The notes below the pieces were generated by a model. It saw only the letters and a program-made list of their open reading frames with translations, did no database searches and was not told where the DNA came from. From positions 1 to 24,022 of the IMG/VR virus record IMGVR_UViG_3300006920_000246: a DNA stretch of 24,022 bases. One strand, given 5' to 3'. How positions within the stretch are numbered: position 1 is the first letter of the stretch; the number at the start of each line of letters is the position of its first letter. The DNA is from a virus. Made by a program: the position numbers and the translations under genes. Shown one piece after another: positions 1 through 8,795 of this stretch.

Positions 1-1839
1 ATATTATTTGATATCGAATCAGACAACTATTTAGAACACATGACAGTCATACATTGTATAGCTTGCATAAACGTCGATACAGACGAAGTATGGAGATTTA
101 GACCTCACCAGATTAAGGAAGGTCTTAAATTCCTACAAGCCGCAAAGGTTTTAATTGCACATAACGGTATAGATTTTGACATTAGGGCAATAAAGAAAAT
201 ATATCCTAGATGGAAAACAAATGCTTATATTTATGATACACTAATTGCCGCTAAGGTTGCATTTCCTGATATTAAAGACAGGGACTTCAAGAGACTTAGA
301 GGTGCAATGAATAAGTCACCAAAAGACAGGAGTGATCTTGAAACTAAGATGATGAGAAATATTGGTAAACATTCTCTTGAAGCTTATGGTTTAAGAATGG
401 GTTGCCATAAAGGTGACTTTGGTAAAGAGATTGGTTTTGAGACATACTCAGAAGAAATGATGGAATATTGTGTACAAGATGTAATTGTAAACGCTAAGTT
501 ATTTCACAGATTAGAGAAAGAAGAAATTAATCAAGATGCTTTAGATTTAGAATTTAGAACACAGCAGATTTGTTTAGATCAAACTGAGAAAGGTTTTGAT
601 TTTGATATAGACAAAGCTAGAAAACTAGAGCAAGATTTAATGAACAGACAACAAGAATTAGCTCAATTAATTTGTGCTGATTTAGGTGGGGATTTTATCA
701 TTAATTTAGGTACTAAAGTGCCTAAGAGAACCACTAAGTATAAAGACCTTTTAAGGGGACAGTATACCAAAGGTGCGGCATATTCCAAAATAAAATTTAA
801 AGAGTTTAATCCTAATTCAAGATATGATCTTGGACAGCGTTTAATCACTAGATTCAATTGGAAGCCTAAAGAATTTGGTACGGATGGTAAACCGACACTT
901 GGTGAAGAAATTCTTTCCAAGATGAAATACCCTGTATCTACACTAATTTCAGAATACTTGATGGTTGATAAACGATTGGGTATGCTTGCTAATGGCAACG
1001 GAGCGTGGTTAAAATTGTACAATGAGGACACAGGGTGTCTCCATGGTAGAATTAATACGCTTGGAGCTGCAACATCACGTTGCGCCCATATGAAGCCTAA
1101 TTTAGCACAGATTCCTTCGGTTAGATCACCATGGGGTAAAGAGTGTAGAGAGTTATTTACTGTCCCCAAAGGCTTTAAACTATTTGGTACAGATGCATCA
1201 GGACTTGAGTTAAGAATGTTAGCTCACTATATGTTCCCATTTGACAATGGTGAATACGCAGATGTAGTACTTAATGGTGATATACACACAGTTAACCAGA
1301 CAGCAGCAGGTTTAGATTCTAGAGATACCGCAAAAACATTTATATATGCTAAAATATATGGATCTGGTATTAAAGGTTTAGCTGAGACTTGTGGAATGTC
1401 TGTTAAAGATATGAAGAAAGTAGTTGATAGTTTTGATAAGAACTTACCTGCATTAGTTAAATTAACTGAAGCTGTAAAGTATACTATTAGGACTAGAGGT
1501 TATGTTAAAGCATTAGATGGTAGAAAAATATATTGTAGTAGTGAACATGCTGCTTTAAACTATTTACTACAATCAGCAGGTGCTATAGTATGTAAAACTT
1601 GGATGGTTGAAATACATAATTTATTAAGTATTAAAGACCCAGAGTATGAAAATTATGTCAAACAATTAGCATTTGTCCATGACGAATTGCAGTTTGCATA
1701 TGATGAAAATAAAATTTCAAATACTGAATTAGATTTAATTTCAAAAGAGGCTATGAGTAATACTCAGATAAAACTCGGAGTAAAGATTAAGCTAGATTCA
1801 GATAGTAGTTTTGGTAATAACTATGCTGAGACTCACTAA
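1..1839 (+). CDS. Family-A DNA polymerase, T7 gp5-like (5' end cut by window)
   Basis: Replicative DNA polymerase with a 3'-5' proofreading exonuclease and a polymerase domain. The frame is open to base 1, and exonuclease motif I (D-I-E-S, bases 10-21) lies before the first in-frame ATG (base 40). That ATG is therefore not the start; probably only a few codons are missing. Exonuclease motif II is H-N-G-I-D-F-D (160-180), and motif III is Y-C-V-Q-D (near 466-480). Polymerase motif A is D-A-S-G-L-E-L-R (from 1192), motif B is R-D-T-A-K-T-F-I-Y (from 1321), and motif C is V-H-D-E (near 1675-1686). The end S-F-G-N-N-Y-A-E-T-H aligns with the T7 C-terminus, so the 3' end is natural. The visible 612 residues compare with 704 in T7 gp5. 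Part of the deficit is in the thumb, where the T7 thioredoxin-binding loop is much shortened. The identification is secure. Confidence 0.97.
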   Translation: MLFDIESDNYLEHMTVIHCIACINVDTDEVWRFRPHQIKEGLKFLQAAKVLIAHNGIDFDIRAIKKIYPRWKTNAYIYDTLIAAKVAFPDIKDRDFKRLRGAMNKSPKDRSDLETKMMRNIGKHSLEAYGLRMGCHKGDFGKEIGFETYSEEMMEYCVQDVIVNAKLFHRLEKEEINQDALDLEFRTQQICLDQTEKGFDFDIDKARKLEQDLMNRQQELAQLICADLGGDFIINLGTKVPKRTTKYKDLLRGQYTKGAAYSKIKFKEFNPNSRYDLGQRLITRFNWKPKEFGTDGKPTLGEEILSKMKYPVSTLISEYLMVDKRLGMLANGNGAWLKLYNEDTGCLHGRINTLGAATSRCAHMKPNLAQIPSVRSPWGKECRELFTVPKGFKLFGTDASGLELRMLAHYMFPFDNGEYADVVLNGDIHTVNQTAAGLDSRDTAKTFIYAKIYGSGIKGLAETCGMSVKDMKKVVDSFDKNLPALVKLTEAVKYTIRTRGYVKALDGRKIYCSSEHAALNYLLQSAGAIVCKTWMVEIHNLLSIKDPEYENYVKQLAFVHDELQFAYDENKISNTELDLISKEAMSNTQIKLGVKIKLDSDSSFGNNYAETH

Positions 1840-1972
1840 AATTTAGATTAAACCGAGTAGGGTGATGACGTACCTGTGCCGAGAGACTAGTAAAAATGTC
1901 TAAACTAAACCATCGAAAAGTTTATTTGCGTGTCCAACTAAACATTGATTGGACTTAACCCATTATAAACGG

Positions 1973-2003
1973 AAAATCCTGAGAAAGATTTTAAACTTCT
2001 CAC
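1973..2003 (+). repeat. Direct repeat copy A (hairpin, CTGAG...CTCAC)
   Basis: A 31-nt element starting AAAATCCTGAG and ending CTTCTCAC. It shares the order AAAA-y-CCTGAG, then AA, TTAAA and CTCAC with copy B at 2084-2116. TGAGAA (1980-1985) pairs with TTCTCA (1997-2002) around an AT-rich loop. It is followed by ATATACTATAACG. Conservation of both the sequence and the pairing arms in two copies suggests a functional element, possibly a phage promoter or processing signal. Confidence 0.5.
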
Positions 2004-2083
2004 ATATACTATAACGTACTGATTGTAACAGTCGTGCTAATAGTGAAAGCGATGCACTGATAAAGCATAGATTAGCTTAAACT

Positions 2084-2116
2084 AAAACCCTGAGTAAACG
2101 GTTAAAAACTGCTCAC
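2084..2116 (+). repeat. Direct repeat copy B (hairpin, CTGAG...CTCAC)
   Basis: A 33-nt element starting AAAACCCTGAG and ending CTGCTCAC, a diverged second copy of 1973-2003. TGAG (2091-2094) pairs with CTCA (2112-2115), and CGGTT (2099-2103) with AACTG (2107-2111, one G-T pair) around a three-base loop. It ends 19 bases before the next start codon, so it lies in the leader of the 2136 gene just upstream of its SD. CTCAC followed by TATA and GGAGA loosely recalls T7-type promoters, but the spacing does not match. Confidence 0.5.
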
Positions 2117-2135
2117 CTTATATCTAGGAGATATT

Positions 2136-2345
2136 ATGAATATATTTAAATTAAACATGGAACTAGATGCTTTACTTAAAAGCAATCCAGAACTTATGGA
2201 ATTACAATTAGAGATAAGTAAAAACTTAGCTAAATTTGATACACCAGAGGGTCGTATGTATTATCTAAGTACAGAATTATTTGATAACTTTGATTTATTA
2301 AGAGAAAAATTAAATGATTTAGAAAAGAAACTAAAGGAATTATAA
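2136..2345 (+). CDS. Small hypothetical protein, helical, 69 aa
   Basis: Start supported by the SD TAGGAGA about 6 bases upstream of the ATG. The product is rich in Leu, Glu and Lys and predicted by eye to be almost entirely alpha-helical. The last 25 residues (from L-F-D-N-F-D to the C-terminus) have coiled-coil-like heptads ending in K-K-L-K-E-L. A segment D-A-L-L-K-S-N-P-E-L-M-E faintly resembles the D/E-x-L-x-x-x-x-P-E-x-F-E start of DUF3135-type small proteins, but this is too weak to assign. It is the first gene after the structured region and its stop overlaps the next ATG (TAATG), so the two are probably translated together. Function unknown. Confidence 0.75.
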   Translation: MNIFKLNMELDALLKSNPELMELQLEISKNLAKFDTPEGRMYYLSTELFDNFDLLREKLNDLEKKLKEL

Positions 2346-5502: not shown

Positions 5503-7041
5503 ATGGATAATATGAATAAAGGTGGTGCTAAGAAAAGATATGACAAACTTGTAACAAAGAGAGTTAATTATCTTACTAGAGCAGAAGATGCTTCTAGATT
5601 AACAGTACCTCAATTATACACTGGAACGTATGATGGTAGTAATGATGGTAACTCTTATGGGACACCATATCAATCATTAGGTGCACGAGGTGTAAACAAT
5701 TTAGCAAACAAGATTATATTAACTTTATTCCCCCCTGCTACAGCTTTCTTTAAAATGGGTATTAGTCCAATTACATTGAAACAGTTAGGTAAAGGTGAAG
5801 GTGAAATACAACAAGCTTTGCAAGTATTAGAAAAAAGTATTGTAAATGAAATGGAAATATCTCAACTAAGGTCAACACTTGTTGATTCGCTTAAACAAGC
5901 TATAGTTGGTGGCTCATTAGTTTTACATATACCAGAGGAAGATAATCCTAAAGTTTTTAGTTTAGATAGCTTTGGTATTAAAAGAAGTAAATCCAAAAGA
6001 GTTCTAGAATTAATCATTAAAGAATCAATGATGTATTCTGAATTAGATAAGGATTCACAAAAACAACTTATTGAGTCAAATAGACTTAAGGAAGAACATA
6101 AAGATGGTAAAGAACCTTTATGTGTATATACTGTTATAGAAAGACAAGATGATGGAATGTATAAAGTACATCAAGATATCTATGATTTAGTAATGCAAGG
6201 TACTGAAGGTATTTATAAAGAAAAAGAATTACCTTATATATTTGTACCTTTTGTAGATCGTGGTGAAAGTTATGGTAGATCATATTGTGAAGATTTCATA
6301 GGTGATTTAAATTCATATGAAGGTCTTAGACAATCAGTATTAGAAGCAGCAGCAGAGTCAGCAAGACTTATTTATTTAGTTAAACCTAATGCTACTTTAA
6401 CAGTTAAAAAGTTACAGTCAGCTAGAAGTGGTGATGTACTCGTAGGTAATCCAGATGATGTTGGTGTATTACAAGCTGATAAAAGATTAGATTTACAAAT
6501 TGCTCAGACTGAAATGGAGATACTAAGGAGAGATCTAGGTACTTTATTTCTATTAGATAGTTCAGTTACTAGAAATGCAGAAAGAGTTACAGCAGAAGAA
6601 ATTAGGAGAGTATCACAGGAACTAGAAGTTTCACTTGGTGGTATCTACTCAACACTTGCTAATGTACTTCAAGAACCTTTAGTTAATCTATACTTAAGTA
6701 GATTAAGAAAGAAAGGTAAAATTAATGACGCATTGAAAGATATGATTGAATTAGAGGTTACAACAGGTTCAGCAGCTTTAGGTAGAGGTACAGAATTTAA
6801 TTCTATTACAGCTTTCCTACAGACTACACAAGCTATACTTGGTGATCAATTTGCTACATATGTTAAAATGCCTGAGCTTATTGCACGAGTTGCAAATAGT
6901 TTAGATATTGGAACATCTGAGTTAATTAAAACAGAAGAAGAGATTCAAGGTGAGCAACAAGCGGCACAAGAAGCTCAAATGGCACAACAAGCAATTTCTC
7001 CTGCAATTAATGCAGCAGCTAAACAAGGACAAGAAGAATGA
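5503..7041 (+). CDS. Portal (head-to-tail connector) protein, T7 gp8-like
   Basis: Forms the dodecameric ring through which DNA is packaged and ejected. Length 512 aa against 536 in T7. Clear family segments are S-L-G-A-R-G-V-N-N-L-A-N-K (58-70; T7 has V-G-A-R-G-L-N-N-L-A-S-K), G-E-S-Y-G-R-S-Y near 253, and N-A-E-R-V-T-A-E-E-I-R-R near 358-369 followed by E-L-E-V-S-L-G-G-I-Y. The C-terminal tail is Gln/Ala-rich, as in T7. The ATG immediately follows the gp7.3-like stop and has only a weak upstream AGGA, so expression probably relies on translational coupling. Its stop overlaps the scaffold ATG (ATGA, 7038-7041). Confidence 0.96.
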   Translation: MDNMNKGGAKKRYDKLVTKRVNYLTRAEDASRLTVPQLYTGTYDGSNDGNSYGTPYQSLGARGVNNLANKIILTLFPPATAFFKMGISPITLKQLGKGEGEIQQALQVLEKSIVNEMEISQLRSTLVDSLKQAIVGGSLVLHIPEEDNPKVFSLDSFGIKRSKSKRVLELIIKESMMYSELDKDSQKQLIESNRLKEEHKDGKEPLCVYTVIERQDDGMYKVHQDIYDLVMQGTEGIYKEKELPYIFVPFVDRGESYGRSYCEDFIGDLNSYEGLRQSVLEAAAESARLIYLVKPNATLTVKKLQSARSGDVLVGNPDDVGVLQADKRLDLQIAQTEMEILRRDLGTLFLLDSSVTRNAERVTAEEIRRVSQELEVSLGGIYSTLANVLQEPLVNLYLSRLRKKGKINDALKDMIELEVTTGSAALGRGTEFNSITAFLQTTQAILGDQFATYVKMPELIARVANSLDIGTSELIKTEEEIQGEQQAAQEAQMAQQAISPAINAAAKQGQEE

Positions 7042-7744: not shown

Positions 7745-8704
7745 ATGGCATATAGTTCACAAGGGGTAAACAACGGAGCTGCACTAAACGGTACAGTAGA
7801 CAGAGAATTATTTCAAGTTAAAGCAGCAACAGATGTTTTAAAGTATTTTAAAGTAACAAACGTAGCACGTCAATTAATTACTAATGAGTCAATTGATAGT
7901 GGTAAATCAAAATCATTTCCAGTTGTAGGTAATGCTACAGCATCTTCAAGAGACGAAGAGACTTTAGCAGAGCTTTCACTTCAAAGTGTTAAAGCTACTG
8001 AAAGAGTAATCGCTATTGACGACTTAACAGTTGCTCATAGTTGGATTTCAGATCTTGATAATGCAATGGTACACTACAATGCAAGTGCTGCACATATTGA
8101 GTCTATCGGTAGAGCTTTAGCTAAAGCTGTAGATATTGCAATTATTGCTAAAGTAATTGAAGCAGGTCGTATCGTTGATGCTACTGCAGCAGCTACAGCA
8201 GGTCTTAAAGTATTTGCTGACGATGTATTTTCAAGCATTGTTCAAACTCAACAAGACTTTGATACTGCAATGACAGGTTCAGAAGTCCAAGCAATGATGG
8301 CTTCAGCTATGACTGAATTTAGAGACAAAGATTGTGTTGGTGATCCAGTATACTTACTTAGACCTCAACCATACTTCGCACTACTTAACAACGCTGCTCA
8401 AACAGGGTTAACTTGGGTAAATGATGAGTATGCACAGTCAGGTAAAGTACCGATGGTATTAGGATCTAAAGTTATGTATTCACCTAACTTTCCTGCTATT
8501 TCATCAACTACTGGTGATGAGAATGCAGTTGGTGTTCTTTTCTCTAAAGAGTGTGTAGGGATCTTAGAGTTACTTTCTGTATCTATTAAGACTGACTATA
8601 TCCCGACTAGATTAGCTGACCTTATGGTTGGTAAACTAGCTGTTGGTTATGGTATTCTTAATCATGGTTCAGCAATTACTTTTGGATTTGAAGAACAAGC
8701 ATAG
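7745..8704 (+). CDS. Major capsid protein, T7 gp10-like
   Basis: Forms the icosahedral shell (HK97 fold). 319 aa compared with 345 for T7 gp10A. The call rests on location between scaffold and terminator/tail-tube genes, on length, and on recognisable family stretches: F-Q-V-K-A-A-T-D-V-L near residue 23, then S-K-S-F-P-V-V-G-N-A-T-A, I-A-I-D-D-L-T-V-A-H-S, and the late Y-I-P-T-R-L-A-D-L-M-V-G-K-L-A-V-G-Y-G. These resemble the T7 pattern of a central insert followed by a basic C-terminal strand. Unlike T7, no 10B-type -1 frameshift extension is possible, because stops follow soon after and the terminator begins within 40 bases. Confidence 0.95.
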   Translation: MAYSSQGVNNGAALNGTVDRELFQVKAATDVLKYFKVTNVARQLITNESIDSGKSKSFPVVGNATASSRDEETLAELSLQSVKATERVIAIDDLTVAHSWISDLDNAMVHYNASAAHIESIGRALAKAVDIAIIAKVIEAGRIVDATAAATAGLKVFADDVFSSIVQTQQDFDTAMTGSEVQAMMASAMTEFRDKDCVGDPVYLLRPQPYFALLNNAAQTGLTWVNDEYAQSGKVPMVLGSKVMYSPNFPAISSTTGDENAVGVLFSKECVGILELLSVSIKTDYIPTRLADLMVGKLAVGYGILNHGSAITFGFEEQA

Positions 8705-8707
8705 AAA

Positions 8708-8733
8708 TAATTAACTCCTATGAGGGTTGATTA
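8708..8733 (+). promoter_or_regulatory. Hairpin directly after capsid stop (possible RNA processing or stabilising stem)
   Basis: TAATTAACTC (8708-8717) pairs with GGGTTGATTA (8724-8733), ten pairs including two G-T, around CTATGA. It has no T-tract, so it is not a terminator on its own. It starts 3 bases after the capsid stop and precedes the real terminator by 8 bases. A role as RNase III site or 3' end protection of the capsid message is inference. Confidence 0.5.
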
Positions 8734-8741
8734 ATAATATT

Positions 8742-8770
8742 GGGGAGGCTTAATTGCTTCCCCTTTTTTT
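8742..8770 (+). terminator. Intrinsic terminator after the capsid gene (T7 T-phi position)
   Basis: GGGGAGGC (8742-8749) pairs with GCTTCCCC (8756-8763), eight pairs with one G-T, around a TTAATT loop. Seven T residues (8764-8770) follow immediately. This is a classic rho-independent signal. Its location between capsid and gp11 genes is that of the T7 T-phi terminator, which reduces but does not abolish transcription into the tail genes. Confidence 0.93.
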
Positions 8771-8795
8771 GATAACTAAAATAAGGAGATAAATT

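Follow-up and report, generated by a model that had tools for sequence, protein, structure and literature searches.

A gene-free interval downstream of the DNA polymerase gene of a T7-like phage contains two copies of a compact H-type pseudoknot, ~27 nt in length, that belongs to a large family of structured RNAs found in phages and almost nowhere else. Compensatory changes place the existence of both helices near certainty. We hypothesize, with a probability of roughly 0.45, that this pseudoknot serves phages as a roadblock at message 3' ends, halting 3'-to-5' exonucleases.

The window (the whole 24-kb virus record analyzed here) begins with a left-open DNA polymerase gene, followed by small ORFs and, rightward, by structural genes; its polymerase shares 57-77% amino-acid identity with those of relatives, and the identities that we take its other genes to have come from reading of the sequence. 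The polymerase gene, the interval behind it and the next gene comprise the following features:

1..1839, plus strand: DNA polymerase I-type gene, 5' end beyond the window; BLAST matches are annotated as DNA polymerase
1850..1913, plus strand: module M3 (AAACCGAGTAGGGTGATGACGTACCTGTGCCGAGAGAC...GTCTAAACTAAACCAT), 94% identical over 64 nt in L302
1920..1954, plus strand: segment with the hairpin GTCCAA/TTGGAC (1932-1937/1949-1954), recognized from sequence only
1973..2001, plus strand: pseudoknot copy A, from descriptor and pattern matches, a counterpart in L001 and family covariation; helix S1 AAAATC (1973-1978)/GATTTT (1987-1992), helix S2 GAGAA (1981-1985)/TTCTC (1997-2001), loops L1 CT (1979-1980), L2 A (1986) and L3 AAAC (1993-1996)
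2003..2085, plus strand: spacer between the pseudoknots, with weak stem-loops including the earlier-named 2036-2076
2086..2114, plus strand: pseudoknot copy B, from descriptor and pattern matches and counterparts in relatives; helix S1 AACC (2086-2089)/GGTT (2100-2103), helix S2 GAGTA (2092-2096)/TGCTC (2110-2114), loops L1 CT (2090-2091), L2 AAC (2097-2099) and L3 AAAAAC (2104-2109)
2136..2345, plus strand: next gene, 69 aa, with a Shine-Dalgarno sequence AGGAG at 2126-2130 and a homologue in L302

The gap that a first-pass annotation had reported is real: 296 nt (1840-2135) separate the polymerase stop codon at 1839 from the ORF at 2136-2345, no ORF of at least 40 aa lies between them, and no other gap in the window is as long (the runner-up, at 8705-8795, spans 91 nt). 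The inverted repeats listed there are likewise exact at 1932-1937/1949-1954 and 1980-1985/1997-2002, and the arms of a further one at 2091-2115 can be read directly from the sequence. The description of the interval as four serial hairpins requires revision, however, as the second and fourth (1980-2002 and 2091-2115) are the S2 helices of the two pseudoknots, whose partner helix had been missed. Nor does folding bear out a highly structured interval as a whole; its minimum free energy of -55 kcal/mol (z = -1.31) is equalled or bettered by 17 of 200 shuffles, and since it barely out-folds them, the number of hairpins alone is unremarkable. No intrinsic terminator (a G+C-rich stem followed by a U run) was detected in 1700-2400. 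Elsewhere in the window, a canonical intrinsic terminator with an 8-bp stem and seven Ts occupies 8742-8763, after the gene at 7745-8704, which is probably the major capsid gene; the main terminator of T7 also follows its major capsid gene.

Both copies stand clear of chance. A pseudoknot descriptor matches exactly twice in the 24-kb window, against 0.075 matches expected per shuffled window, and a looser pattern run over the whole window recovers the same two sites only. At the place of copy A, L001 has a matching copy (CAAG-CT-GAGAA-T-CTTG-TAAAAC-TTCTC), and counterparts of copy B occur at the same position in L001, L002, L003 and L302; in all, L001 carries two pseudoknots and L002 and L003 one each. 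Neither window copy adjoins a stop codon, as 133 nt separate copy A, and 246 nt copy B, from the polymerase stop; the next start codon is 21 nt beyond copy B.

The family shares the architecture NNNC-CU-GAGNA-U-GNNN-nnAAAC-UNCUC, in which a 4-bp S1, an L1 of CU, a 5-bp S2, an L2 of 1 nt and an L3 ending in AAAC succeed one another, with a purine-rich 5' strand of S2 that closes on an A. To evaluate S1, sites were selected with S2, the loops and the two inner S1 pairs fixed and outer S1 free. Pair -3 of S1 was Watson-Crick in 149 of 155 distinct sites (56.5 expected), with all four pair types common (GC 64, CG 63, AT 13, TA 9), and pair -4 in 103 of the 155 (50 expected); pair -5 was at chance level, so S1 extends over ~4 bp. 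Conversely, among sites selected on S1 only, with S2 free, all five S2 pairs were Watson-Crick in 213 of 289, in 11 sequence types, whereas no S1-selected shuffle had four or more S2 pairs. Across 63 diverse sequences, in which the two search patterns themselves impose variation at one S2 pair (the S1 evidence being unaffected), the covariation score was 0.316, compared with 0.097 for shuffles (none of 500 reaches the observed value) and at most 0.057 when the pairing was slid. When the loops were left free in the search, L1 = CT, L2 = T and an L3 ending in AAAC still dominated; judged from sequence, these loops suggest a triple-stranded core in which L1 would sit in the groove of S2 and the A-rich L3 along S1. 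The covariation check that the first-pass annotation had proposed, and had also set as the result that could overturn its reading, thus shows both covariation and conservation for the pseudoknots.

The same motif is widespread in viral sequence. The CTGAGTATGTNNNNAAACTACTC pattern (GAGTA/TACTC) occurs in at least 120 IMG/VR contigs and its compensated variant (GAGCA/TGCTC) also in at least 120, whereas the mismatched combination GAGCA/TACTC is found in 22 contigs in all; the two scans together place the motif in at least 240 contigs. In contrast, 257 Gb of bacterial and archaeal genomes contain CTGAGTATGTNNNNAAACTACTC at only eight places, six of them in Weissella; the pseudoknot is phage-specific and near-absent from bacterial chromosomes. 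Isolate phages with the motif include Roseobacter-group, Lactobacillus, crAss-like, cyanophage and Vibrio phages, and it was confirmed in fetched sequences of Roseobacter phage SIO1, Celeribacter P12053L, Lentibacter ICBM2, Lactobacillus phig1e, crAss-like cr7_1, a Christensenellales phage, Phage C48C1 (Kyanoviridae) and Vibrio phage D456 g1 (with imperfect versions in Synechococcus S-EIVl, Oenococcus phiS13, Silicibacter DSS3phi2 and Rhizobium RHph_TM40). Records carry one to five copies. A 27-nt fold common to phages of marine, freshwater, food and gut bacteria points to a shared requirement of phage gene expression, overlooked so far perhaps because covariance models cannot represent pseudoknots.

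We placed 333 pseudoknot sites relative to genes with a simple, home-made gene caller. Within same-strand gaps, 226 pseudoknots are in the sense orientation and five in antisense, a bias that identifies the pseudoknot as an RNA element. S1 most often begins 5-9 nt past the upstream stop codon, and the next start codon most often lies 20-24 nt beyond the knot. When ORFs of at least 80 aa whose end (upstream) or start (downstream) falls within 60 nt are counted, 98 of 264 sites have an upstream gene only and 50 a downstream gene only; the family therefore typically lies just downstream of coding sequence on the sense strand, the location that a REP-like stabilizer would occupy. The neighboring genes are diverse (Hsp20, ribonucleotide reductase, integrase, endonucleases, DNA polymerase, ligase) and share no common function. 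Promoter-like sequence comes after the knot in L042, L068, L077 and L081, and L066 has a tandem array of three knots and then a terminator-like hairpin, both read by eye. Leader placements also occur, in the order promoter, leader, knot and start codon in L170 and its relatives, and in the leaders of Weissella integrase genes. In L170, L171, L179 and L206 a structured leader, CTGCACCCCGTCACTGGGGAGTCGCAG..CGGGTCGCTACCCG, lies between a promoter-like TATAAT and the pseudoknot, and in L170 and L171 it has no Rfam match. A Pistol ribozyme (Rfam match) is present at 5749-5818 on the minus strand of L182, ~180 nt upstream of a pseudoknot copy.

In twenty cases a knot is followed by a mature tRNA after 4-13 nt (4-7 nt in 18 of them), and most of the twenty knots begin 4-9 nt after a stop codon; no knot was found within 40 nt downstream of a tRNA. 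Many of the tRNA cases come from one gene order and so are not all independent, although the tRNA-Leu, -Arg and -Asn cases in other contexts (L075, L131, L242) have the same knot spacing. The recurring order, a gene of ~336-339 aa, the pseudoknot and tRNA-Asp, is seen in L189, L216, L246, L259, L083 and their relatives, a group in which pseudoknots number up to seven per 15-kb stretch.

From the demonstrated fold, family, strand-specificity and intergenic place, we infer cleavage, blocking and an effect on messages. Read-through transcripts would fold the knot soon after the stop codon, and the intergenic RNA would then be cut, by RNase P where a tRNA follows and otherwise by a host endonuclease. 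At the twenty sites where 4-13 nt separate the knot from a tRNA, cleavage by RNase P would make the knot the 3' terminus of the mRNA ahead of it. Tails of 4-7 nt would hinder loading of PNPase and RNase R; the knot, retained at the 3' end of the upstream message, would leave a tail too short for a 3'-to-5' exonuclease to load, and as a compact fold that is hard to unwind would halt exonucleases entering from the 3' side, so that the message persists. Phages may thereby reuse the knot, sometimes in tandem, as an end cap for single cistrons, and in the window the two copies would each form the end of a short noncoding segment behind the polymerase gene. Several observations count against the roadblock: the window copies have no adjacent stop codon and copy B is near the next start, like a 5' element; ~50 of the 264 sites, including the L170-type and Weissella integrase leaders, have a downstream gene only; and a generic stabilizer might be expected in bacterial chromosomes too, yet the knot is almost absent there. 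A role limited to hosts with RNase J was dropped, as Vibrio phage L299 carries the knot.

Among the alternatives, the one that survives best is a 5' element serving the downstream gene, as a ribosome standby site, a translation enhancer or a block to 5'-to-3' decay by RNase J. The 20-24 nt peak would put the knot just outside an initiating ribosome, and in the Weissella integrase leaders, the L170-type leaders and the window with its relatives the knot is near a start codon and far from a stop; indeed, owing to the position of copy B (21 nt before a start, 246 nt after a stop), the window copies fit such a role about equally well. We nonetheless regard it as unlikely, given that upstream-only sites are twice as numerous as downstream-only ones, that where a tRNA comes directly after the knot there is no start codon for it to serve and, for the RNase J version, that the knot is present in the Vibrio phage; to our knowledge, gammaproteobacteria generally lack RNase J.

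Less probable still is recognition of the knot by a protein, of phage or host, that regulates translation or processing, by analogy with the operator of T4 gene 32. Conservation of the loops CU, U and AAAC in a search that left them free is what protein contact would produce, as would a triplex, and T4 provides a precedent (PMC3014915), but the knot occurs in very different phages beside unrelated genes, and no shared regulator gene was identified among them. We assign a low probability to an action on the terminating ribosome (readthrough, frameshifting or a block to post-termination scanning), even though the sharp 5-9 nt spacing from the stop is that of recoding pseudoknots. The phage knot is also compact, with a 2-nt L1 and an A-rich L3, as are the frameshift knots of luteoviruses. 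However, tandem stop codons precede it at several sites (e.g., TAATAAATAA in L190 and L025), and knots also follow noncoding leaders and precede tRNAs. A minimal-pseudoknot metabolite riboswitch is improbable: small H-type riboswitches are similar in size and in their triplex-like loops, but many of the knots are in 3' UTRs or before tRNAs, and flanking genes this diverse, without a common pathway, argue against a metabolite switch. A DNA element, whether a replication origin or an inverted-repeat protein operator, is very improbable: S2 alone would form a dyad (GAGTA...TACTC), but S1 joins a base outside that dyad with one inside and covaries strongly, an operator needs neither, and the strand bias is 226:5; nothing favors the origin reading of 1840-2135.

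Across relatives, the region that holds the pseudoknots is a shifting assembly of small RNA modules. L001, L002 and L003, whose polymerases are 77, 77 and 72% identical to that of the window, all keep a noncoding interval after the polymerase, but its length and sequence differ, and the part in common with the window is a short motif immediately ahead of the next gene. A DNA homology search of phage records with 1500-2500 gave matches confined to the polymerase-coding part, and no tRNA or tmRNA was found in the closest relatives (L001, L002, L003, L009). The proposal of a conserved untranslated RNA or processing region therefore holds for the two pseudoknots, as members of a large covarying family, and possibly for 1850-1913, but not for the region as a unit, as relatives retain the pseudoknots amid otherwise unrelated sequence. 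The slot after the polymerase in relatives holds another widespread element, M2 (AACGAGGC...CGCCTACAACC), so that the post-polymerase interval is best described as a hypervariable slot for small RNA modules.

Of the window's other modules, M3 is 94% identical in L302, where the polymerase DNA is 74% identical, indicating that M3 is either conserved or recently exchanged. Its fold is unexceptional (z = -0.5), and either an RNA or a very small ORF could reside there; as read from its letters, such an ORF may run from ATG at 1865 to TAA at 1903 (MTYLCRETSKNV). The hairpin at 1932-1954 (fold z = -1.52), for which no homologue was found, possibly belongs to a third, different pseudoknot spanning 1920-1954, by putative pairing of GTTTA (1920-1924) with TAAAC (1939-1943), and the spacer at 2003-2085 has no fold support (z = -0.03). 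Both the spacer and M3 were rejected as widespread elements: a gapped 24-base pattern from 2003-2085 has a sole IMG/VR match, in a near copy of the window, and M3 has two other matching loci there, one of them in a near copy of the window.

M2 (AACGAGGCG...CGCCTACAACC) is present in at least 120 IMG/VR contigs (e.g., L002:5484, L003:4430, L302:4596, L329:174, L389:380-470 and L391:10228-10310), folds into an outer stem with three hairpins (z = -3.96 in L389), is absent from Rfam and is often located directly 3' of tRNA genes. Just upstream of it, ARAGORN predicts phage tRNAs with anticodon-loop insertions of ~44-111 nt (L391:10085-10230, L389:242-379, L390:10270-10403, L412:520-726, L345:5513-5638), which may represent introns or tRNA-like domains, or else belong to a single larger RNA. 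After the polymerase in L002, L003, L302 and L329, a four-codon ORF with a strong Shine-Dalgarno sequence, MRYQ* or MRNQ*, is conserved and is possibly a leader peptide.

No RNA family among those searched matches the phage pseudoknot. The first-pass annotation had suggested Rfam as the place to find a known class; Rfam 15 gave no match to the window at the gathering score, and only chance-level ones to the region 1780-2200 (best E = 3, cut-off E <= 10). The covariance model of STAXI (RF01728) matched none of 10 phage records at E <= 10. We found no earlier description of the knot in the literature searched, coverage of which leaves out many journals, and its novelty is therefore probable rather than proven. 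A 2023 compilation reportedly lists candidate structured RNAs from viruses and phages.

Several known systems nevertheless resemble it in part. REP-type and RNase III 3' hairpins stabilize mRNAs and are kept as the 3' end after cleavage; the phage knot shares with them the proposed role and its place just after coding sequence, but is a phage-specific pseudoknot with conserved loops. STAXI elements are likewise small pseudoknots, often in tandem and linked to mobile DNA including integrases, but they belong to Enterobacteriales, usually have three tandem units and carry UUCG loops (Rfam RF01728; PMC2864571). The Lacto-int motif, a candidate RNA from integrase leaders of Lactobacillales and phages that its authors call ambiguous and that is not in Rfam (PMC2864571), precedes integrase genes as the Weissella knots do and, compared by description only, could overlap those sites. 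The gene 32 mRNA pseudoknot of T4 and T2, an autorepression operator at one site 67 nt upstream of one gene (PMC3014915), is also an H-type fold in an untranslated region of phage mRNA, whereas the phage knot occurs at many sites, beside diverse genes rather than upstream of a single-stranded-DNA-binding protein gene, and in most cases immediately behind a stop codon.

A functional parallel, likened here by description, is with the xrRNAs of eukaryotic RNA viruses, compact and sometimes tandem pseudoknots that halt exonucleases (e.g., PMC6299227). Whereas xrRNAs block the 5'-to-3' enzyme Xrn1 in eukaryotes, the phage knot would act in bacterial hosts on 3'-to-5' enzymes. We suggest, tentatively and with the balance still against it, that the family represents a new phage-specific class of exonuclease-halting pseudoknots, reusable 3' caps for cistrons including ends made by RNase P, and hence a bacterial-virus counterpart of xrRNAs. 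If it does halt exonucleases, phages would have in it a portable means of setting message lifetime, and engineers a very small stability tag.
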